Source: Luteimonas saliphila (GTDB lineage Bacteria; Pseudomonadota; Gammaproteobacteria; Xanthomonadales; Xanthomonadaceae). Taken from it: a DNA stretch of 64,000 bases. The DNA lies in NCBI RefSeq assembly GCF_016774335.1, contig NZ_JAETWA010000037.1:1-64000 (forward strand), given 5' to 3'. The notes below the pieces were generated by a model. The model worked only from the letters and a program-made list of their open reading frames with translations. It did no database searches and was not told the DNA's origin. The stretch's first letter is position 1; every line of letters begins with the position of its first letter. Shown here piece by piece: positions 11,798 through 33,737 of the stretch. The translations under genes were made by a program, and so were the position numbers.

Positions 11798-13039
11798 TCA
11801 GGCTGGCTCAGGACTCCGGGGAGAGGGGCCCAGCTCGAACGGGCGCGGGCCCGGCCAACGCAATTCGCAGCAGACCCATTCGGCACAGGCCCGCAGCTCC
11901 AGCTCCCAGCCAATACGCGCGGCCAGCCGTCGCGCGATGTCCAGGCCGATCCCGAAACCCGGCGCATCGGCCGCCGTCGGCGGGTTGCGTATCGCCAGCT
12001 GCGTGGCATCGGCTTCCACCTCGATCGCGCCCGCGCCGCCGTGCTGGATGGCGTTGAGCAGCAGGTTGGCCAGCAGCGTCTCGACGGCTTCCCACGGCGC
12101 ATCCCACTGCAGCCCCGGCGCGATATGGACGCGGAACGACTGCTGGCGCGTGGCGGCCAGCGGCTGCAGTTCATCGATCAGCTCCCCCAGCGCCGAGGCC
12201 GCATGCGTATGCTGCGCGCCCGCCAACGTCGCTTCGCTGGATAACCAGAGGATCGCGTTGCCCGCGCGCTCCAGCCGCGACAACGCACGTTGCAGCCGCT
12301 GCAAGGCCGGAGATGCGGCTTCCGCCTCCTGCAGCAGGGCCAGGCTGGTGCGGGCCGACTGCAGCGGCGTGCGCAGTTCGTGTGCCAGGAAGGTCAGGGT
12401 TTCGCGTTCGCGTTCGACGGCCTCGTGCCGGCTGCGCCAGACCTCGGCGTGCAGCTGCAGGATCTCGGCGAACTCGCCGACCGGCTCGGCCCGCGCCAGC
12501 GCCTCCAGGCTCGCAGGATCCGGCGTCGCCCGCACCTGCGCCACGAGTGTGCGCGCCCGCCGTTCGGCACGACCGACGAAGGCGCTGGCCAGCAGCCACG
12601 CGCACAGCATGGTCGATACGAAGACCGCCACGGCATAGCCCAGTCCGGCCGGAAGCCGCGGTGTGACGGTCAGCTCGCCGGTCACGTCGTACAGCAGCAC
12701 GGCGCGGCTACCGTCGGCGGCCGGCACCAGCCGCGCGTGCACGTAGCGACCATCGTCGCGTCGGAACTCCGCCATCGCGCCGGCGCGTCGGTCACCGAAA
12801 CGCTTCTGCTCCCGTGGCGAGAGCTGCGTGAACGGAACCAGCGCGAAATGCTCGGGCAGGGACGCCATGCGCGTATCGGCCGGCAAGGTCGCCGCGACCG
12901 TCTGCAGGCGCCGGTCGATGAAGCTGTCTTCCAGCACGAACAACAGCAGCAGGGCGATCCCTGCGAACAGCAGCGACAACAGCGCAGCGAAGAGCATCCA
13001 GCGCCGGACCAGCGCCTCCCGCAGGCTATGCCGGCGCAT
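11798..13039 (-). CDS. Sensor histidine kinase
   Basis: About 413 residues from the ATG at 13039. Transmembrane segments lie at about 14-36 and 133-155 with a ~95-residue periplasmic sensor between. The dimerisation helix carries the phospho-accepting His220 in TFLAHELRTP. The ATPase domain has the N-box LLNAIQHGG and a G-box GFGIGLDIARR; the D-box is reduced (RNPPTAADAPG), which shortens the lid. It overlaps its response regulator gene by 14 bases, so the two are co-translated. The signal sensed cannot be read. The following neighbour is the truncated phosphatase region, so there is no obvious target gene on that side. Confidence 0.9.
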   Translation of the reverse strand: MRRHSLREALVRRWMLFAALLSLLFAGIALLLLFVLEDSFIDRRLQTVAATLPADTRMASLPEHFALVPFTQLSPREQKRFGDRRAGAMAEFRRDDGRYVHARLVPAADGSRAVLLYDVTGELTVTPRLPAGLGYAVAVFVSTMLCAWLLASAFVGRAERRARTLVAQVRATPDPASLEALARAEPVGEFAEILQLHAEVWRSRHEAVERERETLTFLAHELRTPLQSARTSLALLQEAEAASPALQRLQRALSRLERAGNAILWLSSEATLAGAQHTHAASALGELIDELQPLAATRQQSFRVHIAPGLQWDAPWEAVETLLANLLLNAIQHGGAGAIEVEADATQLAIRNPPTAADAPGFGIGLDIARRLAARIGWELELRACAEWVCCELRWPGPRPFELGPSPRSPEPA

Positions 13040-13736
13040 CCGTGGCCTCCGCGCTGAAGCGGTAGCCCACGCCACGCACGTTGGCGATCAACGGCACGCC
13101 GAAGGCGCGCAGGCAGTGCCGCCGCAGCTGGTAGACGTGCATGCGCAGCGGATCGCTGTCCGGCGGCTCACCCTGCCACAGTCGCTCGCACAGGAGCTGC
13201 CGTGAGACCGCGCCCGGGCTCGCCTCCATCAACTCGCGCATCAGCACGAGTCCGGTGCCATGCAATGGCAGGGATTCGTCGTCGCGCTGCAACAGGTGGC
13301 GCTGGATGTCCAGTACGTAGGCGCCCACGCGCAGCTGCAGGCCGCCGGCATGCGCCACGTGCGCGGTGATGGCGCGTGCGCGTGCCAGCAGCTCCGCCGG
13401 GGCGAACGGCTTGACCATGTAGTCCACCGCGCCGGCGGCGAACGCAGCGAGCTTGTCGTCCAGCGAGCCCCGCGCGGTGAGGAACAGCACCGGCGCGCGC
13501 ATCCCGCCCTCGCGCTTGAGCGACCGGCACAAGGCCATGCCGTTCTGGTCGGGCAGGTTCACGTCCAGGACCGCCAGGTCGAACGGCTGCGCCTGCAGCC
13601 GCGCGCGCGCCTGTGCCGCGTTGTAGGCGAAGTCGACCGCCACGCCATGGCTGCCCAGGTAATCGCCGATGCCGGCGGCGACATCGACATCGTCCTCCAC
13701 CAGCAGCAGCCGCAAGGGCGGTGCGCACAGCTTCAT
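13026..13736 (-). CDS. OmpR-family response regulator
   Basis: A 236-residue product. The receiver domain has the acidic pair in LLVEDD, the phospho-acceptor Asp58 in AVLDVNLPDQNG, a T in FLTARG and the Lys in YMVKPF. The C-terminal winged helix ends with RMHVYQLRRHCLRAFGVPLIANVRGVGYRF. It overlaps the histidine kinase gene, and the DJ-1/PfpI gene on the same strand ends 33 bases upstream. The target genes are unknown; the DJ-1/PfpI gene is a possible operon partner. Confidence 0.93.
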   Translation of the reverse strand: MKLCAPPLRLLLVEDDVDVAAGIGDYLGSHGVAVDFAYNAAQARARLQAQPFDLAVLDVNLPDQNGMALCRSLKREGGMRAPVLFLTARGSLDDKLAAFAAGAVDYMVKPFAPAELLARARAITAHVAHAGGLQLRVGAYVLDIQRHLLQRDDESLPLHGTGLVLMRELMEASPGAVSRQLLCERLWQGEPPDSDPLRMHVYQLRRHCLRAFGVPLIANVRGVGYRFSAEATDAPA

Positions 13737-13769: not shown

Positions 13770-14825
13770 TCATCCATGCGCGAGCCGTTGCAAGTGCCAG
13801 GCGTCGCCCCAGCGCCCCTGCATCGCGGCCACCAGTGCATGCATCAGCAGCAGGTGCTTGCCTGCCCCGGGCGCCGACTGCCTGGTTTCCAAGGCGGCGT
13901 CGATGCCGCCGCGACGATAGGCCTCCATCACCCGCACCGCCTGCTCCTCGCGCGTCGCTTCGCGCGCGACGGGCGGATGGCCCAGCGCCTTCACCATCGC
14001 TTCGGCCACCGACCAGGTCGACCACGGGTTCTGCCCGGTCACCAGCCGGCCATCGACCACGGTGTTGTCCAGGTACAGGCTCCCTTCGACGAATCGCGCG
14101 CCGCGCTGCACGAGCGCATCCTGCAGCAGTTCATCGAAGCGCTGCCGCGCGTCCTTCATCAGGAACAGTTCCTCGGCATTGGTGAAGCCGGTGACGCGAC
14201 GCCCCTGCAGCAGGCGCGTGCCGTCGTCGAGGGTCGCGTCGAGCAGCGCCGCCGGGCCGTGGCAGACGGCACCGACCACGCCACCGGCGCCATGGACGTG
14301 GCGCACGATCCGCGCGATGGCGGCATTGCCGGGGAAGTCGAACATCGCGCCCTTGCCGCCGACGAAGTACACCGCCGCGTACCGGGATGCGTCCACCGCC
14401 TCCAGCGGCAGGCTGGCGGCGAGCTTCGCCCGCGCCGACGCGTCGTTGAGGAAGGCATGGTCGGCCTCGCCCATGTCCTCGTCGTCCACGCGCATCGGCG
14501 GCGAACCGCCCTGCGGGCTGGCGATATCCACCGCATAGCCGTTGGCGATGAAGGTGTAGTAGGCGCGCGACAGTTCGGTCAGTTCGAAGCCGGCGCGCTT
14601 GTCGGTGCCGGGGAAGTACTCGGCGCTGCTGACCACCGCGAGGATGCGGCCGCGCGTCGGCGGTGGCGCATCGCGCATGAACGCCAGGTCGGCCACGCTG
14701 CTGCGTGGGTCGGCCGGTGGCTGGCTGCCCAGGTCCAGGCTGAGCACGTACAGACCAGCGCCCGCAGCCAGCGTCACGACTGCAGCCAGCGCGCCCAGCA
14801 CCAGCCGCTTGATCCAACGCCTCAT
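13770..14825 (-). CDS. Membrane-anchored DJ-1/PfpI family protein
   Basis: A 351-residue product. Residues 8-30 are a hydrophobic anchor or signal. The class I glutamine-amidotransferase-like fold follows, with ILAVVSSAEYF, a Glu-rich FELTELSRAYYTF, VYFVGGKGAMFDF, and the nucleophile elbow GAVCHGPAALL with Cys near 172. A C-terminal helical extension of ~90 residues is unusual. Relatives act as glyoxalases, chaperones or proteases; exposure on the periplasmic side would be uncommon. It sits just upstream of the two-component pair on the same strand and may share its transcript. Confidence 0.82.
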   Translation of the reverse strand: MRRWIKRLVLGALAAVVTLAAGAGLYVLSLDLGSQPPADPRSSVADLAFMRDAPPPTRGRILAVVSSAEYFPGTDKRAGFELTELSRAYYTFIANGYAVDIASPQGGSPPMRVDDEDMGEADHAFLNDASARAKLAASLPLEAVDASRYAAVYFVGGKGAMFDFPGNAAIARIVRHVHGAGGVVGAVCHGPAALLDATLDDGTRLLQGRRVTGFTNAEELFLMKDARQRFDELLQDALVQRGARFVEGSLYLDNTVVDGRLVTGQNPWSTWSVAEAMVKALGHPPVAREATREEQAVRVMEAYRRGGIDAALETRQSAPGAGKHLLLMHALVAAMQGRWGDAWHLQRLAHG

Positions 14826-15350: not shown

Positions 15351-15378
15351 CAGGTCGGGTGCGATGGTTCTTCGGACG

Positions 15379-16764
15379 CTACCTGGCCAGGCCCGAAGAC
15401 CCCATCCCCACGGACAACCGAAGCAGCAATCCCGGGTCCGCCCTGTGCGCGGACAGCTCCCATCCATGCGCCAGCGCGATCTCCCGGCAGATGGCCAGGC
15501 CGAGGCCGGCGCCCTGGTCGCGCCGATGGGCGCCGCGCCAGAAGCGGGAGAACATCTGCGACAGATCTCGCGGATCCACGCCGGGGCCGGAATCGCGCAC
15601 CGTCACCGTTTCGGCGTCCACCTCCACCCGCACCTCGGTGCCGCCCGGCGCATGCTGGATGGCGTTCTCCAGCAGGTTCTTCAGCAGCGTGAACAGCGCG
15701 CCGCGATCGGCTTGCCATCGCGCAACGGACGCGCCGGACAGGGTCACATGCACCTGGGCCGCCTCGGCCACGCGCTGCAGGTAGGCAACCACGTCCTGCG
15801 CAACCTCCTGCACATCGGTGATGGCGAAGTCGTAGTTCTGCACCTCGCTGGCTTCCGCCAGCAGCAAAAGCTGCTGCACCTGACGCGTCATGTGCTCGAC
15901 ATCGCCGAGCAGCGCGTCGCGGTCTTCGCCCCCCTCTCTCAACTCGACCTGCGCGTGGATCAATGCCAGCGGCGTCTTCAACTCGTGCGCAGCCGTCGCA
16001 AGGAACTCCCGCTGCACGCGGTATCCGTGTTCCAGTCTGTCGAGTGCGCGGTTGAAGCTGTGCACCAGGGGCGCGATCTCGGACGGCACCGCCTCGGTCC
16101 GCAAGCGCGCGTGGAGTGCGCGCGGCGAGATCGAGGTTGCGGACTCCGACAGCTTGCGCAAGGGCCGGAGCGTGTATCCGAGCGTGACATAGGCGCAGAT
16201 GCCGAAGACGACGAGCAGCACCGCGCTGAAGACGACCACGCCCGCACCCATGAAGGGCATGGTGAATTCCTCGTAGATGAAGCCCAGCATCCGCGTGCTG
16301 ACGGCGAACTGCAGGTACCAGGTCCTTCCGCCATGCTCGAAGCGCTCGATGGCGCTGTGCATCCGGACGCCCCCGCGTTCGAAGTTGAAGCTTCCAGGCA
16401 CAAGTCGCCGCGATTCCGCGGGAGACCAGAAGTCTTCTCCGGCAGCGGAAACGAGCACCGTCCGCCCGGAGTCGTCCAGCATGCGGTAGGCAACTTCCCC
16501 CTTGAGGCTCTCGTAGATCCACTCGTCGTCATCCTCGCTGGCCGCGAAGCCGACCGGGACGCCCTTGCCGTCGAACCGGACCGCCCCGACCAGCTCCCGC
16601 GTGTACTCGGCCATGTCTGCCTTCAGCAACAGGTCGCTGCGGTAAGTCGTCAGCACGAGGGTCGCCAGGATCATGAGCAGAACGCTCAGGATCACCCCGA
16701 CCACGTACGCGAGCAGGACCCGCAGGCTAAGGCTGTTCGGCACTGTCGGCTTCACGAAGGGCAT
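15379..16764 (-). CDS. Sensor histidine kinase of the envelope-modification island
   Basis: A 461-residue product from the ATG at 16764. Transmembrane helices lie at about 15-39 and 171-195. The ~130-residue periplasmic sensor contains an acidic run EDDDE at 77-81. A HAMP linker follows, then His260 in FLATAAHELKTP. The ATPase boxes are NLLENAIQHAPGG (N), VRDSGPGVD (G1) and GAGLGLAICREIA (G2). It overlaps the response regulator gene by 38 bases. An acidic sensor next to lipid A-type genes recalls PhoQ and PmrB, which detect cations and cationic peptides; this is inference. The last codons abut a peptidase remnant. Confidence 0.92.
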   Translation of the reverse strand: MPFVKPTVPNSLSLRVLLAYVVGVILSVLLMILATLVLTTYRSDLLLKADMAEYTRELVGAVRFDGKGVPVGFAASEDDDEWIYESLKGEVAYRMLDDSGRTVLVSAAGEDFWSPAESRRLVPGSFNFERGGVRMHSAIERFEHGGRTWYLQFAVSTRMLGFIYEEFTMPFMGAGVVVFSAVLLVVFGICAYVTLGYTLRPLRKLSESATSISPRALHARLRTEAVPSEIAPLVHSFNRALDRLEHGYRVQREFLATAAHELKTPLALIHAQVELREGGEDRDALLGDVEHMTRQVQQLLLLAEASEVQNYDFAITDVQEVAQDVVAYLQRVAEAAQVHVTLSGASVARWQADRGALFTLLKNLLENAIQHAPGGTEVRVEVDAETVTVRDSGPGVDPRDLSQMFSRFWRGAHRRDQGAGLGLAICREIALAHGWELSAHRADPGLLLRLSVGMGSSGLAR

Positions 16765-17419
16765 AGCCGAGACCTCTGACATTGATGATCCGTTGGCGCG
16801 AACCGATGACGCGCAGCTTGCGGCGGAGGCGATGCAGGGCGACATCCAGCGCGCCCGGGGTGACGGCCTCGCCCAATCCCCACCCGACCGACTCTAGTGC
16901 GCCGCGGCGCACGACTTCGCCGTGCTTGCGCAGCAGCAACAGCATGATCTGCATTTCGGCCGGGGGGAGCCTCGCGCTCTCCTCGCCGTGACATATGGTG
17001 CCGGAGGCAAGCCGCAGCGTCAGACCGCCATGGCTGGGATCGAGCGGGCGAACCTCCGCCGGGCGGCGCAGCAGCGCCCGCACGCGCGCCACCATCTCAT
17101 CCATGGCGAACGGTTTAGGAAGGTAGTCATCGGCGCCGGCATCCAGACCCTCCACACGGTCGCGCAACGCATCACGCGCCGTCAGCACCAGGCAGGGCAC
17201 GTCGATTCCAGCGCGGCGCATGCGCCGCAGCAGGACGAGCCCATCGCCATCCGGCAACCCGCGATCGATCACCAGCGCCTGGTAAGGCATGTGCCGGATC
17301 GCCGCCCACGCGGCGTCGACGCTGTCGACGACATCCGCGGCGATTCCGGCTGCCGCGAGTCCCTTGCATACCAGTCGCGCAAGCCGCTCGTGATCCTCGA
17401 TCAGGAGAATGCGGCTCAT
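16727..17419 (-). CDS. OmpR/PmrA-type response regulator of the envelope-modification island
   Basis: A 230-residue product from the ATG at 17419. Receiver residues are in place: IEDH, phospho-acceptor Asp52 in LVIDRGLPDGDG, LTARD and YLPKPF. The winged helix ends VALHRLRRKLRVIGSRQRIINVRGLGYAL. It is divergent from the phosphatase and eptA side of the island, with direct repeats of GTAAG at an 11-base period in the gap, the layout OmpR-family proteins bind. Part of this gene (matching 17256-17318) is present as a relic at 20703-20764, so the regulator region has been duplicated. Confidence 0.92.
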   Translation of the reverse strand: MSRILLIEDHERLARLVCKGLAAAGIAADVVDSVDAAWAAIRHMPYQALVIDRGLPDGDGLVLLRRMRRAGIDVPCLVLTARDALRDRVEGLDAGADDYLPKPFAMDEMVARVRALLRRPAEVRPLDPSHGGLTLRLASGTICHGEESARLPPAEMQIMLLLLRKHGEVVRRGALESVGWGLGEAVTPGALDVALHRLRRKLRVIGSRQRIINVRGLGYALREADSAEQP

Positions 17420-17529
17420 CGCGTCGTTTTGTTCTCTGGTGAATGATGGAGGCAACGCGCTCGCACAGAAAGCTCTACTCCTGCATGCGTTCGACGAGCC
17501 GCGAATGAGCGGCATTGTCGAGCGTCTTC

Positions 17530-17685
17530 CTTACTGGACACTTACCAGGCCGAACCTATGCCTGGTCCGGGGAAACTTCCCGAATGTAAGTATCCGGAAA
17601 GACGCATCCCCCGACAGTAGCGCCTCGTTATAGCACGAGGCATCGCATGCGTCCGCACCGCGGAATCATTCTGATCGGGCAGCCC
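17530..17685. promoter_or_regulatory. Duplicated control region, copy 1, with OmpR-type box
   Basis: Contains CTTAC motifs near 17530 and 17542. GTAAG at 17586 is followed 11 bases later by GAAAG at 17597, a direct repeat of the spacing used by OmpR-family regulators. About 110 bases, up to GAGGCATCGCATGCGTCC, match the region at 20764-20885. It separates the leftward regulator gene from the rightward phosphatase side. Regulation by the neighbouring regulator is inferred. Confidence 0.5.
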
Positions 17686-17864
17686 CAAGCACACATCCGC
17701 GTCGTGAACGAACCGAGGTTCGCGCGTTCCTGTTCGTCCGGGACGGAGGCCGCGACGGTGGCGCCGAACGCATGGCGAGGCAAGCCGTGACCGCCGATCC
17801 GGCGGGTGTACCTGACCCCCAATTCCGACAAGGAAGCCGCCATGACGACGGGGCTGGCGCCGGG

Positions 17865-18083
17865 GACGCTGTCGCCATCCTGGATGCGGACCTCCAAGTC
17901 CCGCACGAGCCGATACCGCGGGTGGTGTCGGTGCGGCGCGAGCGCACCGACGTGGAGGTGACGCGGCGCGGCGCCCGCGCCAGCGAATTCCTGCGCGAAC
18001 GCGTCAGCGCCCACTCGTTCCACCAGGCGCTGACCCGGATCGGCGACTTCCACTTGGAATCGCTTCCCGCCAGGGCGGCACCA
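17865..18083 (+). pseudogene. GT2 (GtrB/bactoprenol-type) glycosyltransferase remnant, copy 1
   Basis: The frame reads AVAILDADLQVPHEPIPRVV, VRRERTDVEV, ARASEFLRERVSAHSFHQALTRIGDF. This aligns with the catalytic middle of GtrB/dolichol-phosphate-type GT2 enzymes (usual VIDADLQDPPELIPRLV, then GETWLKRATAHLFYRLLRRIGDF). The N-terminal nucleotide-binding part and the C-terminal membrane part are missing. The frame runs without a stop straight into the phosphatase ATG at 18084, so a longer fusion product is formally possible. A second remnant of the same gene lies at 20938. Confidence 0.6.
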
Positions 18084-18659
18084 ATGAGGTTGATAGCGCT
18101 GGCAAAGACGGCATACGCGCAAGTACAACGGCCTCGGCAGCTGATGGCGATGTGCCTGATCGGTACTGCCTTGTCCGCCTTCTATCCATCCGATCTGCCG
18201 AGTTACCGCGATACGCCGCGCAGCGAGCACGCACTGGTCACGGGTACGGAGCGGTACGGGCGGTTCATCAACACGATCGCACAGGTGGCACTGCCCATTG
18301 TCAAGCGCGACCCGATAGGGATGGTGCAGAATCTCTATATCGGTGTCGCCGGCACCTTCATGACGCATGGCTTGAAGCGGGCGTTGGATCCAGTCACTGT
18401 TCTGGGTGTGCGCCTGGGTGAGCGCCCCTATGGCGGGCGGCACAACATGCCCTCAGGACATGCCTCACTGGCGTCTTCAGCAGTGTACTTCCTGGGGCGT
18501 CGTTACGGATGGTGGCACCTGCTTTACCTGGTGCCGGTGCTGTTGCTGACAATGTTCGCGCGTGTCGAGCTTGATGCACATACCGGATCTGCCGTGATTG
18601 CAGGCGCACTGATCGGCATTTTCTCCGCTGCGCTGTTCACCGGAAAGTACAGGTCGTAA
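18084..18659 (+). CDS. PAP2-family membrane lipid phosphatase, LpxE-like
   Basis: A 191-residue product with hydrophobic spans near 22-34, 63-72, 83-95, 147-158 and 168-184. The phosphatase motifs are KRALDP (98-103), PSGH (123-126) in GGRHNMPSGHAS, and R160-x5-H166. The third motif's usual Asp is an Ala here (H-T-G-S-A). GGRHNMPSGH resembles lipid A 1-phosphatases, and the setting next to eptA supports lipid A or carrier-lipid dephosphorylation at the periplasmic face. Its reading frame is continuous with a glycosyltransferase remnant upstream, and the GC content is lower than in the housekeeping genes. Confidence 0.78.
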   Translation: MRLIALAKTAYAQVQRPRQLMAMCLIGTALSAFYPSDLPSYRDTPRSEHALVTGTERYGRFINTIAQVALPIVKRDPIGMVQNLYIGVAGTFMTHGLKRALDPVTVLGVRLGERPYGGRHNMPSGHASLASSAVYFLGRRYGWWHLLYLVPVLLLTMFARVELDAHTGSAVIAGALIGIFSAALFTGKYRS

Positions 18660-18742
18660 GCCGGCTGGCATCGGCGCCCGCTGGTGGATGCCAGCCATCA
18701 TTCACAACGAATAATCAAGGAGGGTCGCATGGGACGATTCGC

Positions 18743-20341
18743 ATGCACGCCCTAGCGCTCAGGCTGTTGTCCGGTGCCTTCATTCCCAGGGTGCGCTGGC
18801 GTCTCCGGACGCCAATGTTCGTTCTCGCCTGGGCGCTATTCAATGCTGTGGCATACCACGTGCCGCTCTATCTGTTCGGCATCGATCATCTGGATGTCGC
18901 GTCATTGGGAGCGGGCGTGACATTGCTCACGCTGTTCATCCTGGTGGTGGCACTGACCGCATTGTTCACCGGCGTCATCGCCTCGATTGTGCCGCGACTG
19001 GTCAAGCCTTTGTGCATGGCGATGGCGGTAGCCAATGCCATCGCACTCTATTTCGTGGTCACGTACGGCGTTGTGCTGGACGAGACCATGATGGGCAACA
19101 CCTTCAATACCGATCCGGCGGAAGTCGCCGGTCTGTTCCATCCATGGATGCTTGTGTACGTCTTCTGCCTGGGCATCGTGCCGTGCTGGGTTCTCTTGCA
19201 GATCAAGGTGACGCACACGCCTTTTCTCAAACGTCTGGCAATGCCCATCGCGGTAAGTGTCTTCACGCTTTGCTGGGCGTATGGCGCATCCCAAAGCTGG
19301 TTGTGGATCGACAAGCATGCCAAGCATCTTGGCGGCATGGTCCTGCCTTGGTCGTATGTGGTCAATGGTGGGCGCTATCTGGCAGGCAACGCCGCCCCGT
19401 ACGAACGCAGGCTGTTGCCTGCCGCCCATTTCGTGTCGAATGAGAAGAAGGTCGTCTTCCTGGTGATCGGGGAGTCTGCCCGCGCGCGGAACTTCTCCCT
19501 GTATGGGTATGGAAGGCAGACCAATCCGGCACTCTCCAAAGCTGGCGCCACGGTCTTCAAAAAGGCCCGGTCGTGCGCCACGTACACCACTGCCTCGCTC
19601 GAATGCATCCTGGCCCACCAGGAGCCCGGGGCGCGCGCGATGTGGGAGCCATTGACCAGTTATCTGCAGCGTCATGGCGTCGAAGTCACATGGCGTACGA
19701 ACAACGCCGGCGAGCCTGCAATGGACGTACGGCACTTCGAGCGCCTCGGCGATGTGAAGGCCGATTGCACGGAAGAGGCGTGTGATCATGACGAAGGTCT
19801 GTTGCGTGGCATCGAAGCGCGCATTGCTGCATCGAACCAGCAACGTATCCTGGTGGTATTCCATCTCGAGGGGAGTCACGGGCCGGCATACAACGTGCGC
19901 TATCCGTCGCGTTTCAACGTATTCACGCCTGTGTGTGCATCGGTCCAGTTGCACCAATGCTCGATCGACGAACTGATCAATGCTTACGACAACACCATCG
20001 TCTACACGGACTTTGTCGTGGGACAGGCCATCGACATGCTGAAACGTCTACAAGGCTACTCGACCTCGCTGATCTACGTTTCTGATCATGGCGAATCATT
20101 GGGGGAATTCAACCTATATCTGCACGGGACGCCCTTGTCGATTGCACCCGACGTTCAGAAGGATATCCCGTTGATCCTATGGGATTCCAGCGCAGCTCAC
20201 TCAAACGCAAATGCGACATCGATTGTCGAAGGCGAATTTTCCCACGCGAATGTATTTCACAGCGTAATGGGCGCGTTCGGCATGCGTAGCGACATCTTCG
20301 AGCCCGAACTGAATCTCTTCTCACCAGAGAATCACCAATGA
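18743..20341 (+). CDS. eptA: Phosphoethanolamine-lipid A transferase, EptA-like
   Basis: A 532-residue product with five N-terminal membrane spans (about 25-45, 58-80, 90-110, 136-152, 166-182) and a periplasmic sulfatase-fold domain. Key residues match EptA: Glu244 in VIGESARARNFSLYGY, nucleophile Thr280 in SCATYTTAS, and SDHGES near the end. It transfers phosphoethanolamine from phosphatidylethanolamine to lipid A phosphate, lowering negative charge and polymyxin binding. A good AGGAGG at 18718-18723 is placed for an 8-codon open frame beginning ATG at 18729 (MGRFACTP, stop at 18755), while the EptA ATG is at 18743. Initiation may be coupled, or the native start is frameshifted. GC is lower than neighbouring chromosomal genes. 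Confidence 0.9.
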   Translation: MHALALRLLSGAFIPRVRWRLRTPMFVLAWALFNAVAYHVPLYLFGIDHLDVASLGAGVTLLTLFILVVALTALFTGVIASIVPRLVKPLCMAMAVANAIALYFVVTYGVVLDETMMGNTFNTDPAEVAGLFHPWMLVYVFCLGIVPCWVLLQIKVTHTPFLKRLAMPIAVSVFTLCWAYGASQSWLWIDKHAKHLGGMVLPWSYVVNGGRYLAGNAAPYERRLLPAAHFVSNEKKVVFLVIGESARARNFSLYGYGRQTNPALSKAGATVFKKARSCATYTTASLECILAHQEPGARAMWEPLTSYLQRHGVEVTWRTNNAGEPAMDVRHFERLGDVKADCTEEACDHDEGLLRGIEARIAASNQQRILVVFHLEGSHGPAYNVRYPSRFNVFTPVCASVQLHQCSIDELINAYDNTIVYTDFVVGQAIDMLKRLQGYSTSLIYVSDHGESLGEFNLYLHGTPLSIAPDVQKDIPLILWDSSAAHSNANATSIVEGEFSHANVFHSVMGAFGMRSDIFEPELNLFSPENHQ

Positions 20342-20699
20342 CATCGAACGCGCTGGCAGGGATGGCCTGCGCGAGTACAACCCGACCCCGCACTTCAGCC
20401 CGCATCCTGCCCGCCATGGCGCAATCGAACGTGGCGGGCGGGAACTCGAGCTCCAGCCCGGTTTCGGCAGGCCATCCTTGCGCCGTCCGATAGGGCAGCG
20501 TGCGCTCGGCACGGCGACGACGGTAGGCCCGGATCTCGGCAGCGCTCCATGACACCCGGGGCGTGCGGGCGACGGGTCCGCGTTGGCGACGACAGGGCCG
20601 GATCGGCATGCAGGTGGCATGCCGCAACGCTCGCCGCCTTCGCCGACGCCGGGTATCGGCCGTCGGCGACCTGCGTAGGCGAATCTCCCATCGCCTCTG
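20342..20699. other. No convincing gene downstream of eptA
   Basis: Short frames exist on both strands. One leftward frame reads SWSAAEIRAYRRRRAERTLPY, but nothing is recognised and no start with a ribosome site is evident. The stretch sits between eptA and a response regulator relic and is probably decayed DNA. Confidence 0.4.
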
Positions 20700-20766
20700 G
20701 CAGCCGCGATCGATCGCCAGCGCCTGGCAAGGCGTGCCCCGGATCGTGGCCCATGCCGCGTCGCTT
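20700..20766 (-). pseudogene. Fragment of a second response regulator gene
   Basis: About 62 bases (20703-20764) align with 17256-17318 of the intact regulator gene. They encode AAWATIRGTPCQALAIDRG against AAWAAIRHMPYQALVIDRG, including the phospho-acceptor Asp. The rest of the gene is gone. The duplicated control region follows directly, in the same relative order as in copy 1. Confidence 0.6.
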
Positions 20767-20885
20767 ACCTGTCCGAGCTTTCCCTGACAGGCGGGAACTT
20801 ACTGTCCGGTAAGTATCCGGTAAGACGCATCGCCTGACAGTTGCGCCTCCTCAAAGCACGAGGCATCGCATGCGTCCGCACGCCC
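20764..20885. promoter_or_regulatory. Duplicated control region, copy 2, with OmpR-type box
   Basis: CTTAC at 20764, ACTTAC at 20797, then GTAAGTATCCGGTAAGA at 20809-20825, in which GTAAG repeats at an exact 11-base period. The following ~70 bases up to the conserved CATGCGTCCGCAC match copy 1. Copy 2 keeps the repeat more perfectly than copy 1. It probably drives the chimeric phosphatase gene. Confidence 0.55.
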
Positions 20886-20937
20886 GCATCATTCCGCTCG
20901 GGACGGCACGGGCACGCGCCCCCTTCGCGAACGCATT

Positions 20938-21115
20938 GAAGTCGCGATCAGCGTTGTCGTCATCCTGGATGCCGACCTCAAAGACTCGCTCGAGTTCATG
21001 CCGCGGGTGGTGTCTGCGTGGCGCGAGGGCGCCGACGTGGAGCTGATGCCGGACCGCACCCGCGCCGGCGGATCCTTGGCCAAACGCATCAGCCACATGA
21101 AGTGGCTGTTGCCTG
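20938..21115 (+). pseudogene. GT2 glycosyltransferase remnant, copy 2 (N-terminal part)
   Basis: The frame reads AISVVVILDADLKDSLEFMPRVVSAW, GADVELMPDRTRAGGSLAKR, then jumps to HMKWLL, after which the match continues one frame over in the next gene (AWVGMETRVIGYGRDLRTGGRSKW). Compared with intact GtrB-type enzymes there is an internal deletion after SLAKR and a frameshift near 21108. It is homologous to copy 1 at 17865 but keeps a different part. Confidence 0.6.
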
Positions 21116-21122
21116 GGTCGGC

Positions 21123-21941
21123 ATGGAGACCCGGGTGATCGGGTACGGCCGCGACCTGCGTACGGGCGGTCGCTCGAAGTGGAGCACCTCGGGCCCGTTG
21201 CGACAGGCGATCGAAGGCCTCGCCTCCCTCTCGATCAAGCGTCTGCGCTGGGCCGCCGTTGTCGGCGTCGCGGCGGCTGCCGGCGGCGGACTGCTCGGAC
21301 TGTGGTTCGCGACCGACGTGCTGCTCCTGGGCGAAGCGGTGCAGGAGTATCCGTCGCAGGTTTCGGCCATCGGCTTCTTCGGTGCCGTGCAACTGCTGGA
21401 TGAGCGACTGTTCGTGTTTCTGAACTCGCTGGGGTCGGAGCGCTGGGACGGATTCTGGCTGTTCGTCACCAGCAGATTCTCGTCGATCCCAGTATCCGTG
21501 GCGTTGCTTTATCTGCTCTATCGACATTACGGATTGAAGAATCTGCTGGTCATTCTGGCGCTGGTCGCGTTGATGATCACCGTAACGGATCAGTTGGCCA
21601 ATCTCTTCAAACACGGCTTCGAGCGCCCCAGGCCCTGCCGGGAAGAGCATCTGAAGGAGATCATCCGTTATATCGCGCCGCGCTGCGGGCGTTACGGCTA
21701 CTTCTCGGCGCATGCGGCGAACTCGATGGCGCTGGCGGTTTTCGTGGGTTTAGTGCTCAGAAACACCTACAAACACCTGCTGCTTCTTCTGCTTTTCTGG
21801 GCGTCGATCGTGAGCTTCAGCCGTATTTACGTGGGGGTGCACTATCCGTTGGACTCTCTGACCGGCGCGGTCATCGGGGCTTTGGTGGGCTTCCTTATCT
21901 ACAAACTTTCACAGCGGTTCAACCTGTCGCGGCCCCGATAG
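21123..21941 (+). CDS. Chimeric protein: GT2 membrane tail fused to PAP2 phosphatase
   Basis: A 272-residue product. Residues 1-90 are the C-terminal end of a GtrB-type glycosyltransferase: GRSKWSTSGPLRQAIEGLASLS, then two membrane spans ending GFFGAVQL. From about 21393 the frame continues without a break as a complete PAP2 phosphatase: LDERLFVFLNSLGSERWDGFW, motif 1 KHGFERPRPC, motif 2 YFSAHAANS, motif 3 SRIYVGVHYPLD. PAP2 proteins of this layout dephosphorylate undecaprenyl or lipid A phosphates. The normal phosphatase start would be near residue 90, so the fusion looks recent. A shorter product from an internal start is possible. It is probably driven by control region copy 2. Confidence 0.75.
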   Translation: METRVIGYGRDLRTGGRSKWSTSGPLRQAIEGLASLSIKRLRWAAVVGVAAAAGGGLLGLWFATDVLLLGEAVQEYPSQVSAIGFFGAVQLLDERLFVFLNSLGSERWDGFWLFVTSRFSSIPVSVALLYLLYRHYGLKNLLVILALVALMITVTDQLANLFKHGFERPRPCREEHLKEIIRYIAPRCGRYGYFSAHAANSMALAVFVGLVLRNTYKHLLLLLLFWASIVSFSRIYVGVHYPLDSLTGAVIGALVGFLIYKLSQRFNLSRPR

Positions 21942-22069
21942 TTTCTCGGCCAGCCTTACCGTCCTTTTCAATGGCCCTGGCATCCTCCCGAAGGCGAGGT
22001 GCTGTCAGGCATAGGCCTTTCGATACGTGAAGACAATCCCGGGCCAACGGCCGAAAGCGAGGCCGACGC

Positions 22070-23158
22070 ATGTATGACCTGAGCGTCGTGATCCCCACGT
22101 TCAACGAGAAGGACAATGTTCGGCCGCTGTTCGATCTGTTGCGCGCCGCACTCGCGGGGCGGTCCTGGGAGGCGATCTATGTGGACGACGACAGCCCCGA
22201 TGGCACGGCCGAGCAAGTGCGTTCGCTGGCGCTGGAGTTCGACAATGTCCGTGTCATCCAACGGATCGGGCGGCGAGGCCTCGCCGGAGCGTGTATCGAG
22301 GGCATTCTGTCGTCCACGTCCCCGTTCTGCGCCGTGATCGATGCGGATCTGCAGCACGACGAAACCCGGCTCGCACCAATGCTCGATGCATTGCAGGGCG
22401 ATGACGAACTGGACATCGTGATCTGCAGTCGCAACATGGAAGGCGGGTCGAGCGGGCATGGTCTGTCCCGTCTCCGGCGATGGGGCAGCGATCGTGCGAC
22501 TGCGCTGGCACGGCGCCTGCTGAACATCACCGCCTCCGATCCGGTCAGCGGGTTCTTCATGGTGCGCCGCCTGTCCTTCAACGAGGTGGTCACATCCCTG
22601 CAGGGCGAAGGATTCAAGATCCTCGCCGACATGCTGGCCGCGTCCGCAGGGCGATGGAAGACGCATGAGATCCCGTACACGTTCCGGTCGCGCCACGCCG
22701 GAGAATCCAAGATGGATTCCGCTGTCGCCCTCGAGTTCGTGTCGCTGCTGGTGGTCCGGAAGACTGGCGGGCTGGTGTCGACGCGGTTCGTACTCTTCTG
22801 TGCCGTCGGCTTCACGGGCATCTTCGTGCAGCTTCTTGCCGTCAAGGCCGCGCTGGTCTTTCTGACGGACCAGTTCGCCGTGGCGCAGGTCCTCGGGGTG
22901 TTCGCAGCCATCAACTCGAACTTCCTATGGAACAACCTGATCACGTATCGGGACCGCACTCTGCGCGGGCGCGCGATCTGGCGAGGATTGCTGAGCTTCT
23001 ATGCAGTCTGTGCGCTTGGTGCGGTCATGAACGTGGGCGTGGCCAATGTCTTCTTTGCGGCCCTGCCGTTCTGGGCCCTGGCAAGCGTCGTCGGTGCGAT
23101 TGCCGGCGCGCTCTGGAACTTCATCGCCTCTTCGCTGTTCACCTGGCGCACCCGTTGA
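22070..23158 (+). CDS. GT2 glycosyltransferase fused to a GtrA-type membrane domain
   Basis: A 362-residue product. Residues 1-230 are a dolichol-phosphate-mannose-type GT2 domain: LSVVIPTFNEKDN, the DDDSPDGT nucleotide motif, and IDADLQHDE for metal. Residues 240-360 carry four membrane helices of the GtrA family (RFVLFCAVGFTGIFVQ, NFLWNNLITYRDR, ALWNFIASSLFTWR). Such fusions load a sugar onto a lipid carrier and present or flip it across the inner membrane, supplying donors to enzymes like the ArnT-like protein encoded next. The order, strand and 145-base spacing support a joint role in envelope glycosylation. Confidence 0.88.
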   Translation: MYDLSVVIPTFNEKDNVRPLFDLLRAALAGRSWEAIYVDDDSPDGTAEQVRSLALEFDNVRVIQRIGRRGLAGACIEGILSSTSPFCAVIDADLQHDETRLAPMLDALQGDDELDIVICSRNMEGGSSGHGLSRLRRWGSDRATALARRLLNITASDPVSGFFMVRRLSFNEVVTSLQGEGFKILADMLAASAGRWKTHEIPYTFRSRHAGESKMDSAVALEFVSLLVVRKTGGLVSTRFVLFCAVGFTGIFVQLLAVKAALVFLTDQFAVAQVLGVFAAINSNFLWNNLITYRDRTLRGRAIWRGLLSFYAVCALGAVMNVGVANVFFAALPFWALASVVGAIAGALWNFIASSLFTWRTR

Positions 23159-23303
23159 CGCACGCGAGGGCATCTGGGTTGGCGACTGGTCGCTGTGAAC
23201 GGAAACAGTGCGAACGCAGCCACGACGGAAAGGTGGAGGTTTCGGCGCACCGTGGCTTCGGGGGTCTGGCGGCACAACGTTCTTGCGTAAAGGCGACTCT
23301 CTG

Positions 23304-24761
23304 ATGCGGCCTTCCGTCTTCGCCATATCGCTTTCGTTTCTTGTCGTACACCTCGCCATCGCCGCGTTGGTCCCCCTCTTCGATGATGAGGCCTATTACG
23401 CACTGTGGGCCCGCGACCTGGCGCTCGGTTACTACGACCACCCGCCCATGATCGCCTACATGATCCGGATGGGAACCAGCCTCTTCGGTGAAACCGCGCT
23501 CGGCATCCGCCTGTTCCCGGTGATCGGTTTTGCCGCCTCGGGATACCTCGTGGGCGATATGGCGCGGCGCATGTCCGGTGGCGCAGCGGGTCTGCCAGCG
23601 CTGGCGACAACGCTCTACAACCTTGGTCTGCTTGTCTTCGCTCTGGGCAGTTTCGCCACCCCCGACGCGCCCTCGACCTTGTTCTGGGTCGCCGCACTCT
23701 GGGCCGCGATGCGCGCGATCGACGCGCCCCCGGACACACGCTCCGCGATGCGGTGGTGGGTCTGCGCGGGTCTGCTTCTCGGGTTCGGCGGCCTGTCGAA
23801 GTTCACCAATGCTTTCCTGGCCTTCGGATTGCTGACCTACCTGATTGCCACGCCAAAGGGCCGCGCGTCCCTGCTCACGCATCTGCCCTATACGGCCGTG
23901 GCGGCAGCGATTCTGCCGCTTCTGCCCTATCTTTTCTGGAACCTTCAGAGCGATTGGCTCGGCCTGGAACGCCAGGGCGCGCGCCTCGCCGCCTCCGGCT
24001 TCTCGACCCGATATCTGGGGGAATATGCCGCGCTCGTGCTCCTGGCGCCGACGCCATTGGTCTCCTGGTTCGCCTTCCGGGCTCTCAGGGCCCCGCCGAA
24101 GGACGCAGCGCTGCTGGTGTGGAGCTCCGTTCCGCTCCTGCTCTACTTCGCCTATCACGCGACCCATGCGCCAGTTCAAGCCAACTGGATCGTGCCGCTG
24201 CAGGCGCCCTTCGCCCTGCTCGCGGCCTTTGGCCTCGCTCGAGCGCAGGCGCCGCGGCTCTGGACCAAGGCCACCCCCGCCATCGCATTGGCGATGAGCG
24301 TCGGCTTGGTCGCGACCGCCTTCAACCCGGTCACCCCGATCGGCACGGCCGACAATCCACCAAACCAGACGCGCGGATGGCCAGCGACCCAGGAGGCCAT
24401 CGCCGAACTACTCGAGGAAACGGGCGCAACCTGGATCGCCACGACCGACTACGCGCGAACCGGATCGCTCGCGCTTCGTTTTCCGCAAGTGCGCGTCTGG
24501 TCCGTGACGCAACTGCAGCGCTACGGCTTCCGTGGCGCCTTCCCTGCCGAACTGTGCACGGCCCCCGGCCTCCTGATCGAGCGGGCAAGCCCGTCGCAAA
24601 CGACCTCCGGGACAGCCTCAAGCCTCTTTGAAACGGTCGAAGCCGCCCATGCAGCCGTTCGAACGCAGGACGGAGTCACACTGATGCGATATCTCCTAAC
24701 GCCGGTATCCGGGATCAGGTCGCCGGATCTGTGCCCAGGCCACGTAGATTCGCGGATCTGA
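23304..24761 (+). CDS. ArnT-like GT83/GT39 family glycosyltransferase
   Basis: A 485-residue polytopic protein. The first periplasmic loop has the donor-site acids in FDDEAYYALWARDLALGYYDHPP, and RLFPVIGFAASG opens the second helix. At least ten hydrophobic helices follow, and a C-terminal soluble part ends the protein. Family members take a sugar from an undecaprenyl or polyprenyl phosphate and attach it to lipid A, protein or glycan on the periplasmic face. It follows the GT2-GtrA gene that can make such a donor, so the pair forms a plausible pathway. The sugar and acceptor are unknown; aminoarabinose cannot be claimed because arnA/B-like genes are absent here. Confidence 0.85.
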   Translation: MRPSVFAISLSFLVVHLAIAALVPLFDDEAYYALWARDLALGYYDHPPMIAYMIRMGTSLFGETALGIRLFPVIGFAASGYLVGDMARRMSGGAAGLPALATTLYNLGLLVFALGSFATPDAPSTLFWVAALWAAMRAIDAPPDTRSAMRWWVCAGLLLGFGGLSKFTNAFLAFGLLTYLIATPKGRASLLTHLPYTAVAAAILPLLPYLFWNLQSDWLGLERQGARLAASGFSTRYLGEYAALVLLAPTPLVSWFAFRALRAPPKDAALLVWSSVPLLLYFAYHATHAPVQANWIVPLQAPFALLAAFGLARAQAPRLWTKATPAIALAMSVGLVATAFNPVTPIGTADNPPNQTRGWPATQEAIAELLEETGATWIATTDYARTGSLALRFPQVRVWSVTQLQRYGFRGAFPAELCTAPGLLIERASPSQTTSGTASSLFETVEAAHAAVRTQDGVTLMRYLLTPVSGIRSPDLCPGHVDSRI

Positions 24762-24800: not shown

Positions 24801-24916
24801 TTCGTCGAACAGACGCACGCACTCAAGCGCATCGCCGACCCGGACGATCGCCGCTGCCGCGCTGTTCCTCGCCTCGGACGCCTCCGGCTTCGTCACCGGC
24901 AGCGCGATGCGGGTGG
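24801..24916 (+). pseudogene. Fragment of an SDR gene 3' end
   Basis: About 116 bases nearly match 28521-28637, the 3' part of the intact SDR gene. The shared segment starts TTCGTCGAACAG, encodes VEQ-x-HALKRIADPD, and ends at GCGATGCGGGTGG. A small indel after GCCGACCCGGACGA breaks the frame. It is an orphan copy joined to a truncated lipoprotein gene of the opposite strand. Confidence 0.7.
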
Positions 24917-27805: not shown

Positions 27806-27896
27806 GATCGCCGGACGCCCATGCAACGGCCGAATGCGGCGAGTACCGCGCGTGGCCGTCGCACAGACTGCGGGCTCCCACACAGGAGACGCAGAC

Positions 27897-28667
27897 ATGG
27901 CAGCACAGGCACTGGCCGGCAGGACGGCGATCGTCACTGGCGCGAGTTCGGGCATCGGGCGCGCAGCGGCATTGCGGTTCGCGCGCGAAGGTGCGCGGCT
28001 GGTGGTGAGCGGCCGCCGCGCGGATGCCCTGGCCCAACTGGTCGACGAAATCGAACGCGCCGGCGGCGAGGCGATCGCCTGCGCGGGCGACGTTCGCGAC
28101 GAGTCGCACAACGACACCCTGGTCGACACCGCGCTCGCGCGCTTCGGGCGTGTCGACATCGGTTTCAACAATGCCGGAGGCACCGGCGCCATGGGGCCGG
28201 CCAGCGCGATGTCGCTGGCCGATTGGCGCGACACCATCGACACCAACCTGACCTCGGCGTTCCTCGGCGCGCGGCGGCAGATGAGGACCATGCTGGAGGC
28301 TGGCCGCGGCTCGATCATCCTCACCTCGAGTTTCGTCGGGCACACCGCCGGCATGCCCGGAACCGCCGCCTACGCGGCCGCCAAGGCCGGCGTCATCGGC
28401 CTGGTCCAGGTGCTTGCCGTCGAGGGAGGGCAGCACGGAGTACGCGTCAACGCGCTGCTGCCCGGCGGCACGGACACGCCCGGCGCACGCGATTTCATCC
28501 AGGACCCGGCGTCACGCGTATTCGTCGAACAGATGCACGCACTCAAACGCATCGCCGACCCGGACGAGATCGCCGCGGCCGCGCTTTTCCTCGCCTCGGA
28601 TGCCTCCAGCTTCGTCACCGGCAGCGCGATGCGGGTGGATGGCGGGGTGTCGATCAACCGGACATGA
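27897..28667 (+). CDS. Short-chain dehydrogenase/reductase (SDR)
   Basis: A 256-residue product. The Rossmann motif TGASSGIG is at residues ~14-21, NNAG follows in FNNAGGTGAMG, the catalytic Ser is in LTSSFVG, and Y-x3-K is YAAAKAG. The C-terminus FLASDASSFVTGSAMRVDGGVS is typical of classical SDRs. It uses NAD(P)H; Arg residues in the second strand (SGRRADAL) favour NADP. The substrate is unknown. A partial copy of its 3' end lies at 24801-24916. Confidence 0.92.
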   Translation: MAAQALAGRTAIVTGASSGIGRAAALRFAREGARLVVSGRRADALAQLVDEIERAGGEAIACAGDVRDESHNDTLVDTALARFGRVDIGFNNAGGTGAMGPASAMSLADWRDTIDTNLTSAFLGARRQMRTMLEAGRGSIILTSSFVGHTAGMPGTAAYAAAKAGVIGLVQVLAVEGGQHGVRVNALLPGGTDTPGARDFIQDPASRVFVEQMHALKRIADPDEIAAAALFLASDASSFVTGSAMRVDGGVSINRT

Positions 28668-30331: not shown

Positions 30332-31075
30332 TCAGTGCAGCCGCAGTGCCGGAACCGGCGCATGGCCCCGCCGCTGCCCGGCGATCGCCAGCGGCTGCGC
30401 CGTCTCCCGCACATCGCGCGCGGCCTGCGCCGCCGGCCCTGCGTGATACGCCGCCGGCGTTTCGCGCACGCCGCCAGACGGCTTGCGCGCCGTGCGCAGC
30501 GGCTGCGCGCCCACCTGGTCCAGGATCGCCTCCATCGCCTGCGCATCGTCGAAGATCGCATGCGCCAGCGTCTGCAGGCTGCCGTCGGCCAGGCCCTCCT
30601 CGTCGGTGTTGAACACCACGTCGCCCAGGGCCGTGATCCGCGCGAGCAGGCGGTCGAGCGCGTCCGCCTGGTCCATGGTCAGGCCGAAGACGTAGCGTGC
30701 GCCCGTGCCGGCCTCGGCGTCCACTGCGTCCTCGTCCGCCTCGTCGTGTTCCGCCGCCGCCGCAGACGGCGCCTCATCCGCGATCCCGCCGGCCTCCGGG
30801 GCCGTGGTCGTCTTGTCGTGCACGCGTTCGTGCCGGGCCGGCCACGTTGCCTGCTCCAGCACCTGCGCCGCCTGTTCGGCCAGCAACTCCAGGCACACCG
30901 CCAGCTCGCCCATGCTCACCTCGGGCGCATCGTCGTCTTCCTCGTCGCGGGTGCGCGGCTGCGCCAGCTGCGACAGGAACACCATGTGCCCATGCAGCTT
31001 CCTGAGCCGGAACTGCCCGTCCTCCGACAGCAGATAGCCCCTCGTCTTTCCCTGATCCAATGCATGCTCGGACAT
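30332..31075 (-). CDS. XAC0095-like domain protein
   Basis: A 247-residue product. The N-terminus RGYLLSEDGQFRLRKLHGHMVFLSQLAQPRTRDE matches the XAC0095-like domain that I know from Xanthomonadaceae. An acidic stretch (DEADEDAVDAEAG) and a helix (YVFGLTMDQADALDRLLARI) follow. The tail PSGGVRETPAAYHAG also appears as a relic at 27731. The family's function is unknown. It is preceded by a distinctive leader with hairpins. Confidence 0.8.
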   Translation of the reverse strand: MSEHALDQGKTRGYLLSEDGQFRLRKLHGHMVFLSQLAQPRTRDEEDDDAPEVSMGELAVCLELLAEQAAQVLEQATWPARHERVHDKTTTAPEAGGIADEAPSAAAAEHDEADEDAVDAEAGTGARYVFGLTMDQADALDRLLARITALGDVVFNTDEEGLADGSLQTLAHAIFDDAQAMEAILDQVGAQPLRTARKPSGGVRETPAAYHAGPAAQAARDVRETAQPLAIAGQRRGHAPVPALRLH

Positions 31076-31089
31076 CGTCGCCTCCTCGT

Positions 31090-31260
31090 TCCATGAAGTA
31101 CCCGCCCACCGCGATGCGGCGACGGGAAGTCGGGAGGTTAGAAACCGCGAACAGACGGCGGGCGTATTCCCCTTGCGGGTGTTGTATTAGCCGCCCTCCC
31201 GACGCAGGCATCGCGTCGGTCTGTCCCCGCAAGAGATACGGGCACAAAAAACCCACCGGT
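31090..31260 (-). promoter_or_regulatory. Structured leader upstream of the XAC0095-type gene
   Basis: Contains a perfect 7-base stem CCGACGC/GCGTCGG (31199-31219), a CGGTGGG-type arm near 31240 and a six-T run on the leftward strand (31246-31251). The leftward frame through it is open and reads VSNLPTSRRRIAVGGYFMERGGDD just before the gene's ATG. It may be a conserved 5' leader or the end of an inserted element. I see the structure but cannot assign it. Confidence 0.35.
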
Positions 31261-31600
31261 TTGTCGGAGGTGGGGACCGCTGTTCGAGGAGTTTCTACGC
31301 TCCTTGGAATCGAGTCTGCTACTCGATCAGGGTGGTGTCAAGCACCCGGGGAGGCACCATTTCCTGCGAATCGAATACTGCTTTCGAACAACAACATCGG
31401 ACTCCGTGGTCAAAAAAAAGGACGGAGGGAATTAAGGCTTCCAGACAGACTGCTGTGTCGGTCAGGCGGACACCATTGCCTGCGCATTGATGTAACCGGG
31501 AAGCCTCCCCGCGCGAATACAGAGCCATGACCACGCTGCTGACCCTTACAGGTACTGCGTTCCCCACAAGATCGACATTGGCTAGAACGAGGATTCATTC
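31261..31600. other. Gene-free gap before the second alpha/beta hydrolase
   Basis: No gene is supported. It holds an eight-A run at 31413-31420 between GTGGTC and GGACGGAGG, and GC lower than its neighbours. It probably includes the promoter of the hydrolase at 31601. Confidence 0.4.
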
Positions 31601-32644: not shown

Positions 32645-33049
32645 CTATGCGCTTTCGGATCGCGCCAATGCGCGCAGGACATCCATGGCTTCCTGCGCCT
32701 GCCCGGCCGGCACGAACAGATGGTCGTGACAGACGCCTGCCACGACGTTGCAGCTGATGCCCGCCTGCGCGAGCGCCTGCGAGAACGCAGCGGTCAGGCC
32801 GACGGCCGACAGGTCCGAGTGGACGGTCAGGGTGATCCATGCGGCGGTGAACGCGACCGGCAGGCCCAGCACCACGGCAACCTGCTCCGGGATGACGACC
32901 GAGAGGCCTTCGGGTTCGCGGATGGACGCGACGACATGGGCCGGGTCGGGCACGAATCCGGCGGGCAGGGTGACGAACGTGTAGCGGCCTGGATGCAGTT
33001 CTGGCTGTATGTGGAGCATCAACTGCTTGAGGTCGGCGATCGGCTGCAT
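32645..33049 (-). CDS. ACT-domain protein (DUF2241/ACT_7 type)
   Basis: A 134-residue product. The N-terminal half (LHPGRYTFVTLPAGFVPDPAHVVASIREPEGLSVV, in short blocks) and the C-terminal half (WITLTVHSDLSAVGLTAAFSQALAQAGISCNVVAGVCHDHLFV) form the two parts of the DUF2241 plus ACT-like fold. ACT folds bind amino acids or other small ligands; this stand-alone type has no assigned reaction. The length is normal. It is convergent with the hydrolase gene, and its promoter side faces the Dabb gene. Confidence 0.85.
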   Translation of the reverse strand: MQPIADLKQLMLHIQPELHPGRYTFVTLPAGFVPDPAHVVASIREPEGLSVVIPEQVAVVLGLPVAFTAAWITLTVHSDLSAVGLTAAFSQALAQAGISCNVVAGVCHDHLFVPAGQAQEAMDVLRALARSESA

Positions 33050-33696: not shown

Positions 33697-33737
33697 CCCA
33701 TTCGCGCGCGCCGTAGGGGAGTTCTACCGCAACAAAT

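Follow-up and report, generated by a model that had tools for sequence, protein, structure and literature searches.

How did a two-component system, two phosphatases, a phosphoethanolamine transferase and a sugar module come to lie side by side in Luteimonas saliphila, and do they form a single cluster? We address this question for positions 15379-24761 of a 64,000-nucleotide stretch of contig NZ_JAETWA010000037.1 (hereafter the window; contig C35 of genome G000, whose total length is 4.65 Mb). A sensor kinase gene and a response regulator gene on the minus strand diverge here from plus-strand genes encoding LpxE, EptA, a second phosphatase of the PAP2 family, a family 2 glycosyltransferase fused to GtrA (GT2-GtrA) and an ArnT-like transferase (Table 1). 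We consider it likely, with a probability of about 0.7, that this block is a horizontally acquired, self-contained cluster for lipid A remodeling. The original prediction, which drew attention to the region, had named these genes as neighbors, and a check of open reading frames (ORFs) and Pfam domains finds them all together.

A conserved block in a minority of Luteimonas genomes

The lower GC content that had been predicted for the region is borne out: 63.6% in 15359-24756, versus 69.0% in the remaining window. An LpxE search of the genus recovered the island in five of 52 genomes (G000, G097, G123, G237 and G219), each with the seven genes in unchanged order, so that the gene set is more than a chance assembly. 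DNA comparison with Luteimonas endophytica (L001/L049), a near relative whose EptA is 90% identical, and with G123 (L048) delimits a conserved block from about 15358 to 24736-24756. The islands of G237 and G219 have identical gene order and nearly the same edges as the window. Indeed, the edges at 15358-15359 and 24736-24756 are near-identical in all four other islands, while the flanks are unlike those of the window. Flanks were compared over 4-11 kb on each side of the island. G097, G237 and G219 have flanking DNA in common, though as much as about 4 kb that they do not share can intervene between flank and island; the flanks of the window and of G123 match neither those three nor each other, barring repeat-like pieces to the right of the window island. 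The island occupies at least three flanking contexts.

Table 1. Coordinates of the features of the island in the window
Feature	Position	Strand	Basis
Sensor histidine kinase	15379-16764	-	Pfam HAMP, HisKA, HATPase_c
OmpR-type response regulator	16727-17419	-	Pfam Response_reg, Trans_reg_C
Direct-repeat box CTTAC-N6-CTTAC, upstream of response regulator	17530-17545	+	Exact match
Second box, same pattern, one mismatch	17586-17601	-	Motif scan
Decayed GT2 copy 1 (ArnC/PgfS-like remnant), in frame with lpxE	17647-18083	+	ArnC model, E 2.6e-6, ORF residues 30-79
LpxE, Helicobacter-type lipid A 1-phosphatase (PAP2)	18084-18659	+	Pfam PAP2, NF007159
EptA, lipid A phosphoethanolamine transferase, Helicobacter-type lineage	18743-20341	+	Pfam EptA_B_N, Sulfatase; NF007160
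Regulator 5' end remnant, copy 2	20687-20763	-	DNA identity
Direct-repeat box upstream of second gene group	20809-20824	-	Exact match
Decayed GT2 copy 2, C-terminal GtrB-like membrane part readable	20870-21401	+	PgfS model, E 3.6e-9
Second PAP2 phosphatase	21402-21941	+	Pfam PAP2, 6.6e-23
GT2-GtrA fusion, polyprenyl-phosphate sugar synthase type	22070-23158	+	Pfam Glycos_transf_2, GtrA
ArnT-like lipid-linked-sugar transferase	~23304-24761	+	Pfam PMT_2, 2.1e-29

Selection was estimated from the ratio of nonsynonymous to synonymous substitution rates (dN/dS), calculated pairwise among the five islands; the 10 pairs are not independent, and the figures given are the upper of the two middle values. 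We obtained 0.27 for the kinase, 0.32 for the regulator, 0.12 for the LpxE core (171 codons), 0.19 for EptA, 0.27 for the second PAP2 part, 0.12 for GT2-GtrA and 0.25 for the ArnT-like gene: the seven genes are under purifying selection. The degraded state of both GT2 copies and of a response-regulator fragment might suggest that the island is decaying debris, its pathway no longer functional in this strain. With dN/dS at 0.12-0.32 for seven genes across five genomes and catalytic motifs intact, this interpretation is hardly credible.

The LpxE-EptA pair

LpxE scores 178.8 bits (180 in another run) with model NF007159, for which the cut-off is 177; the same model yields some match in six of 14 control genomes and none above the cut-off. 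The motifs PSGH and ARx5H are present, whereas Kx6RP was not found in its canonical spacing, and a sequence search of solved structures returned no match for LpxE. In the listed ORF (17772-18659), roughly the first 100 codons are decayed GT2 sequence, and LpxE itself starts near 18084-18144. Which codon starts lpxE is open to doubt, since neither L049 nor L048 conserves the ATG found at 18084. In a sample of 198 genomes of the family, 12 match LpxE, five of them above 140 bits and the others below 30; in a class sample 27 of 369 match, none above 42 bits outside the window.

EptA, encoded 83 nucleotides downstream, clearly passes NF007160 (587 bits, cut-off 561). Its catalytic motifs (E, T, D, H) read GESAR, SCAT, FHxxGSHGPAY and SDHGES, and it aligns to solved EptA chains and to MCR-1 chain 9nww. 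Some EptA match is found in 126 of the 198 family genomes; only seven exceed 460 bits, the next scoring 272.

Phylogeny had been suggested as a check for transfer. For EptA, we offered 43 loci to a tree (L001-L015, L021-L044, L054, L058, L112 and L113); L015 and L042 left no row after length filtering, L006 gave two, and the window was added, for a total of 43 rows (L001 and L021 being the same sequence). The island EptAs split from the usual EptA of the family (22 versus 21 rows) with support of 100/100, which establishes a separate lineage. Their group also includes ten Bacteroidota rows, one Rickettsiales, one Pseudoalteromonas and the family genomes G130, G161, G039 and G075. The tree is midpoint-rooted, 15 rows deviate in letter composition, no row is labeled Helicobacter, Capnocytophaga or Xanthomonas, and the Bacteroidota rows were found via patterns of the island EptA. 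The tree does not settle which branch is nearest to the island and so points to no particular donor of its EptA.

The four family genomes in the group belong to other genera (loci L050, L051, L052 and L053). In G130 and G161, LpxE adjoins EptA as eptA-lpxE, the reverse of the island order; over the stretch matched, the G130 LpxE passes the NF007159 cut-off with 187 bits and that of G161 fails with 152. G039 and G075 have an island-group EptA and no LpxE match.

Adjacent LpxE and EptA are also found in Helicobacter pylori (HP0021-HP0022) and in the lpxE-eptA operon of Capnocytophaga canimorsus, and both island proteins pass the Helicobacter-type models. In these organisms, phosphate removal is followed by phosphoethanolamine addition (PMC4730577; PMC3245313), and the order of events proposed in the original prediction is thus a known one. 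There are two differences: the Capnocytophaga genes overlap whereas the island genes are separated, and the island has its own two-component system and sugar module alongside the pair. A phosphoethanolamine transferase likewise adjoins a PAP2 gene in mcr-pap2 cassettes (PMC10285318). However, the island EptA falls far under the cut-off of each MCR model listed, and no close relative of the island LpxE occurs among 72,556 plasmid records: a search for a plasmid source gave 12 weak matches, none covering 80% of the query, with 33-36% identity in the 10 of 12 listed.

Sugar module, regulator and duplicated segment

For the second PAP2, too, the listed ORF (21018-21941) opens with a GT2 remnant, the PAP2 part spanning about 21402-21941. 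Its closest solved chain is 6ebu, named LpxE (E 5.6e-8), which we take to be of Aquifex aeolicus origin. The motifs Kx6RP and SRx5Hx3D are present, with FSAH replacing PSGH, and the best NCBIfam models are those of the undecaprenyl-diphosphatase SepP and of PgpB, all sub-cut-off. The substrate of this protein is not assignable by sequence. GT2-GtrA matches the dolichol-phosphate mannose synthase 5mlz over residues 4-361 of 362 (E 4.2e-43); in view of this full-length match, a polyprenyl-phosphate sugar is its most likely product.

The ArnT-like protein finds some match in 188 of the 198 family genomes; close relatives of this protein, as of the kinase sensor, are present in only three. In the class sample 17 of 369 genomes, including the window, pass 1e-25, and the best match outside the window is 34% identical. 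We inspected about 1.5 kb on each side of 16 distant ArnT-like loci. GT2-GtrA directly adjoins the ArnT-like gene in two (L137 and L138), and in another, L136, a GtrA piece lies on the opposite strand; longer stretches around four of the 16 revealed nothing further. A structure prediction of the ArnT-like protein, from two sequences, gave a mean predicted local distance difference test score (pLDDT) of 36 and was not used.

The best NCBIfam model for the kinase is cztS/silS/copS (193 bits), ahead of PmrB (119 bits), both sub-cut-off. ExxE, the metal motif expected of RaxRH/ColRS-type sensors near their second membrane span, occurs once in the kinase piece, as ERFE at residue 140, a position that may or may not adjoin such a span. 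For the regulator the best model is PmrA, at 169.7 bits under a cut-off of 330. Upstream of the regulator lies a direct-repeat box, CTTAC-N6-CTTAC, whose 16 bases are identical in all five islands; the second box beside it recurs, at up to one mismatch, in three of the five (window, L049 and L048). Each of the five islands has at least one box ahead of both gene groups. Only three exact boxes occur in the whole genome: two in island intergenic regions and one at C29:147861. L048 and L049 each show three matches at one mismatch, a number that no shuffle out of 200 attained. Both gene groups are possibly under one regulator. Since the regulator's best model is sub-cut-off, its pairing with the box is a testable guess and not a result.

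The island may also be read as two unrelated modules: lpxE-eptA would act on lipid A, and the second PAP2, GT2-GtrA and ArnT-like proteins would sugar-modify another envelope polymer (an O-antigen side group, a protein or peptidoglycan), the PAP2 being an undecaprenyl-(pyro)phosphate phosphatase. The SepP and PgpB scores point this way, as do the 676 nucleotides and second promoter-like segment between the modules; moreover, L137 and L138 show no match to the island EptA or LpxE within about 1.5 kb on either side of their GT2-GtrA and ArnT-like genes. However, the whole set is co-inherited in five islands out of five, the same kind of box stands ahead of both modules, and Xanthomonas clusters also unite ArnT with lpxE-eptA (PMC8306577). 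We hold the two-module interpretation to be possible, somewhat short of an even chance.

The region between the modules also bears on how the cluster was assembled. Segment 17259-18008, comprising the 5' end of the regulator, the promoter and the start of a GT2 gene, is repeated in degraded form at 20704-21093, in three pieces that are 78-85% identical; two copies of this regulator-promoter-GT2 segment therefore flank lpxE-eptA. In the regulator remnant, 20704-20763 is 85% identical to 17259-17318, and 20687-20763 matches the regulator DNA of L049, L048, L112 and L113 at 85-86%. GT2 copy 1 retains 67% amino acid identity with L. endophytica (LpxE, 91%) and has a dN/dS of 0.73 (one pair). GT2 copy 2 matches the C-terminus of sll0501 (E 0.002), and its last 87-95 codons have a dN/dS of 1.17 (10 pairs, range 0.24-2.06). 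In G123 (L048:11841-13331), copy 2 is still open and encodes a 496-residue GT2-PAP2 fusion in which both Pfam domains are matched. A DNA search of the 198 family genomes with the GT2-promoter segment gave strong matches in three genomes only (G000, G097 and G123); of the 54 genomes with any match, the remaining 51 yield short pieces of at most 52.7 bits, and no intact ancestor was found among them. We hypothesize that an older cluster of regulators, GT2, PAP2, GT2-GtrA and ArnT-like genes acquired lpxE-eptA as its promoter segment was duplicated, and that the GT2 copies then decayed while the other sugar-donor synthase, GT2-GtrA, was retained. The decayed copies would then preserve a trace of cassette assembly.

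Several further features lie near the island. Just past its right edge, 24801-24916 holds part of a short-chain dehydrogenase gene. Along 118 bases this fragment shows 93% identity to 28521-28638, which belong to the intact gene of that type at 27834-28667; it may be a recombination footprint. Positions 30837-31344 are 83% identical to L113 DNA right of the island, and the left edge of the island in L112 and L113 has shorter matches to it; the ORF at 30332-31072 has no Pfam match. Left of the island, past a DJ-1/PfpI gene (13770-14825), another two-component system, again a kinase with a response regulator, occupies 11798-13736. Another stretch of lower GC content (54-60% in 2 kb windows) spans 33001-37000 and contains two ORFs with no Pfam match (33778-34608 and 35700-36230). 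It is followed at 37166-38278 by two repetitive ORFs rich in lysine and alanine, presumably histone H1-like in look, which adjoin a ribonucleotide-reductase-like ORF (38484-40634, named by eye). No tRNA genes were found in the window. Consensus scans were uninformative for both promoters (one promoter-like site versus 1.3 expected) and terminators (12 terminator-like sites versus 6.4 expected).

Proposed mechanism and known systems

In our proposal, an active two-component system would have its response regulator bind the CTTAC-N6-CTTAC boxes and turn on both gene groups. LpxE would strip a phosphate from lipid A and EptA would then add phosphoethanolamine, as in H. pylori and Capnocytophaga, judging from the protein families. 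GT2-GtrA would make a polyprenyl-phosphate sugar, and the ArnT-like protein would move the polyprenyl-linked sugar onto lipid A or another envelope glycan; more speculatively, the second PAP2 might free a position or recycle a lipid product for the sugar module. The expected outcome would be a less anionic outer membrane and greater tolerance to cationic peptides. We give the whole proposal, of an acquired and regulated lipid A remodeling cluster, the same probability of about 0.7.

A more elaborate version has two remove-and-replace pairs under one switch: LpxE-EptA at position 1 and, at position 4', the second PAP2 as a 4'-phosphatase with GT2-GtrA and the ArnT-like protein. We find this version unlikely. 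If true, lipid A would carry no free phosphate, with phosphoethanolamine at one end and sugar at the other, and Helicobacter and rhizobial strategies would be united in one regulated, transferable cassette. In Rhizobium and Mesorhizobium, galacturonate replaces lipid A phosphates through LpxE/LpxF with RgtD/RgtF/RgtE (PMC7663294), which likewise combine a phosphatase, a lipid-linked-sugar transferase and a polyprenyl-phosphate sugar synthase. The likeness is one of gene logic only, and the island differs in having EptA and hence phosphoethanolamine.

A number of observations weigh against an acquired, regulated lipid A cluster. LpxE clears its cut-off by less than 2 bits in the lower-scoring run, and LpxE proteins, including that of A. 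aeolicus, also act on undecaprenyl pyrophosphate and phosphatidylglycerol phosphate (PMC6581854). The ArnT-like protein fails the ArnT model NF009784 (40.5 bits, cut-off 567), and a sequence search of solved structures returned no match for it. Intergenic gaps run from 83 to 676 nucleotides, so a single operon is unproven. The tree places no one group closest to the island EptA and so names no donor. Between the three islands nearest to one another, GT2 copy 2 has dN/dS values of 0.24-0.39, and some constraint is possible there. As for the boxes, the motif was picked post hoc; by a hand estimate, about two exact matches are expected genome-wide, and the genome also contains one match to a reversed control pattern; at two mismatches the box is not enriched in the window (seven found versus 8.9 expected); and the second copy partly derives from the first by the segment duplication.

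The original prediction further held that this mix departs from known systems, in which eptA or arn genes are the usual content. This is wrong: a divergent Xanthomonas locus, raxRH-arnT-lpxE-eptA, is in print (PMC8306577), and the L. saliphila genome has a further arnT-eptA locus on contig C46, whose layout resembles the Xanthomonas one. At C46, a PMT_2 (ArnT-like) gene, eptA and an ArnC-like GT2 gene lie on one strand, with a response regulator and a kinase on the other. What stands of the single regulated program that had been predicted is a patchy envelope island of lower GC content, with an LpxE-type 1-phosphatase, EptA, a second PAP2 and a sugar module; the novelty of the mix does not stand as claimed.

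Could the island then be a rearranged and diverged form of the raxRH-arnT-lpxE-eptA locus native to the family? Gene kinds and the divergent two-component layout match those reported for Xanthomonas, a member of the same family (PMC8306577). However, the genome has its separate C46 cluster, complete with response regulator and kinase; the C46 EptA falls in the family's usual group and scores 290 bits with NF007160, below 561, whereas the island EptA is in a different, fully supported group (in a tree, as noted, free of Xanthomonas-labeled rows); and near relatives of the island kinase sensor and ArnT-like protein are confined to three of the 198 family genomes. We therefore judge such an origin very improbable. 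The island, which we continue to regard as acquired, also differs from the Xanthomonas locus in its order (lpxE-eptA-PAP2-GT2GtrA-ArnT), in its two PAP2 genes and in having a dolichol-phosphate mannose synthase-type GT2-GtrA within the cluster. In Xanthomonas, according to the same paper, it is unclear which enzyme makes the sugar donor: there are two ArnC-like candidates, both unlinked, and homologs of one of them are linked to arnT in other species.

The genome has five PAP2 genes, two of them in the island. The one on C46 lies about 80 kb from the arnT-eptA-GT2 cluster, and no PAP2 gene was found near that cluster. The island may thus supply a 1-phosphatase that the C46 locus lacks.

Among the matches listed, the Luteimonas literature on lipid A, polymyxin or eptA does not name the cluster; a search joining Luteimonas with lpxE found nothing, and one joining LpxE, EptA, Lysobacter and lipid A found only PMC8306577. 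In these and our other literature searches we found no description of a Helicobacter-type pair with a second phosphatase, a dolichol-phosphate mannose synthase-type GT2-GtrA and an ArnT-like protein in a minority of one genus, alongside decayed remnants that give a hint of its assembly. The parts of the island are of known kinds; their combination is a variation that these searches did not turn up.

The island would represent a 1-dephosphorylation and phosphoethanolamine module of Helicobacter/Bacteroidota type that has settled, with its own sensor, in a few gammaproteobacteria, in a host genome that also has the family-type arnT-eptA cluster. If the island is active, phosphate removal, phosphoethanolamine addition and sugar addition would be separable gene by gene.

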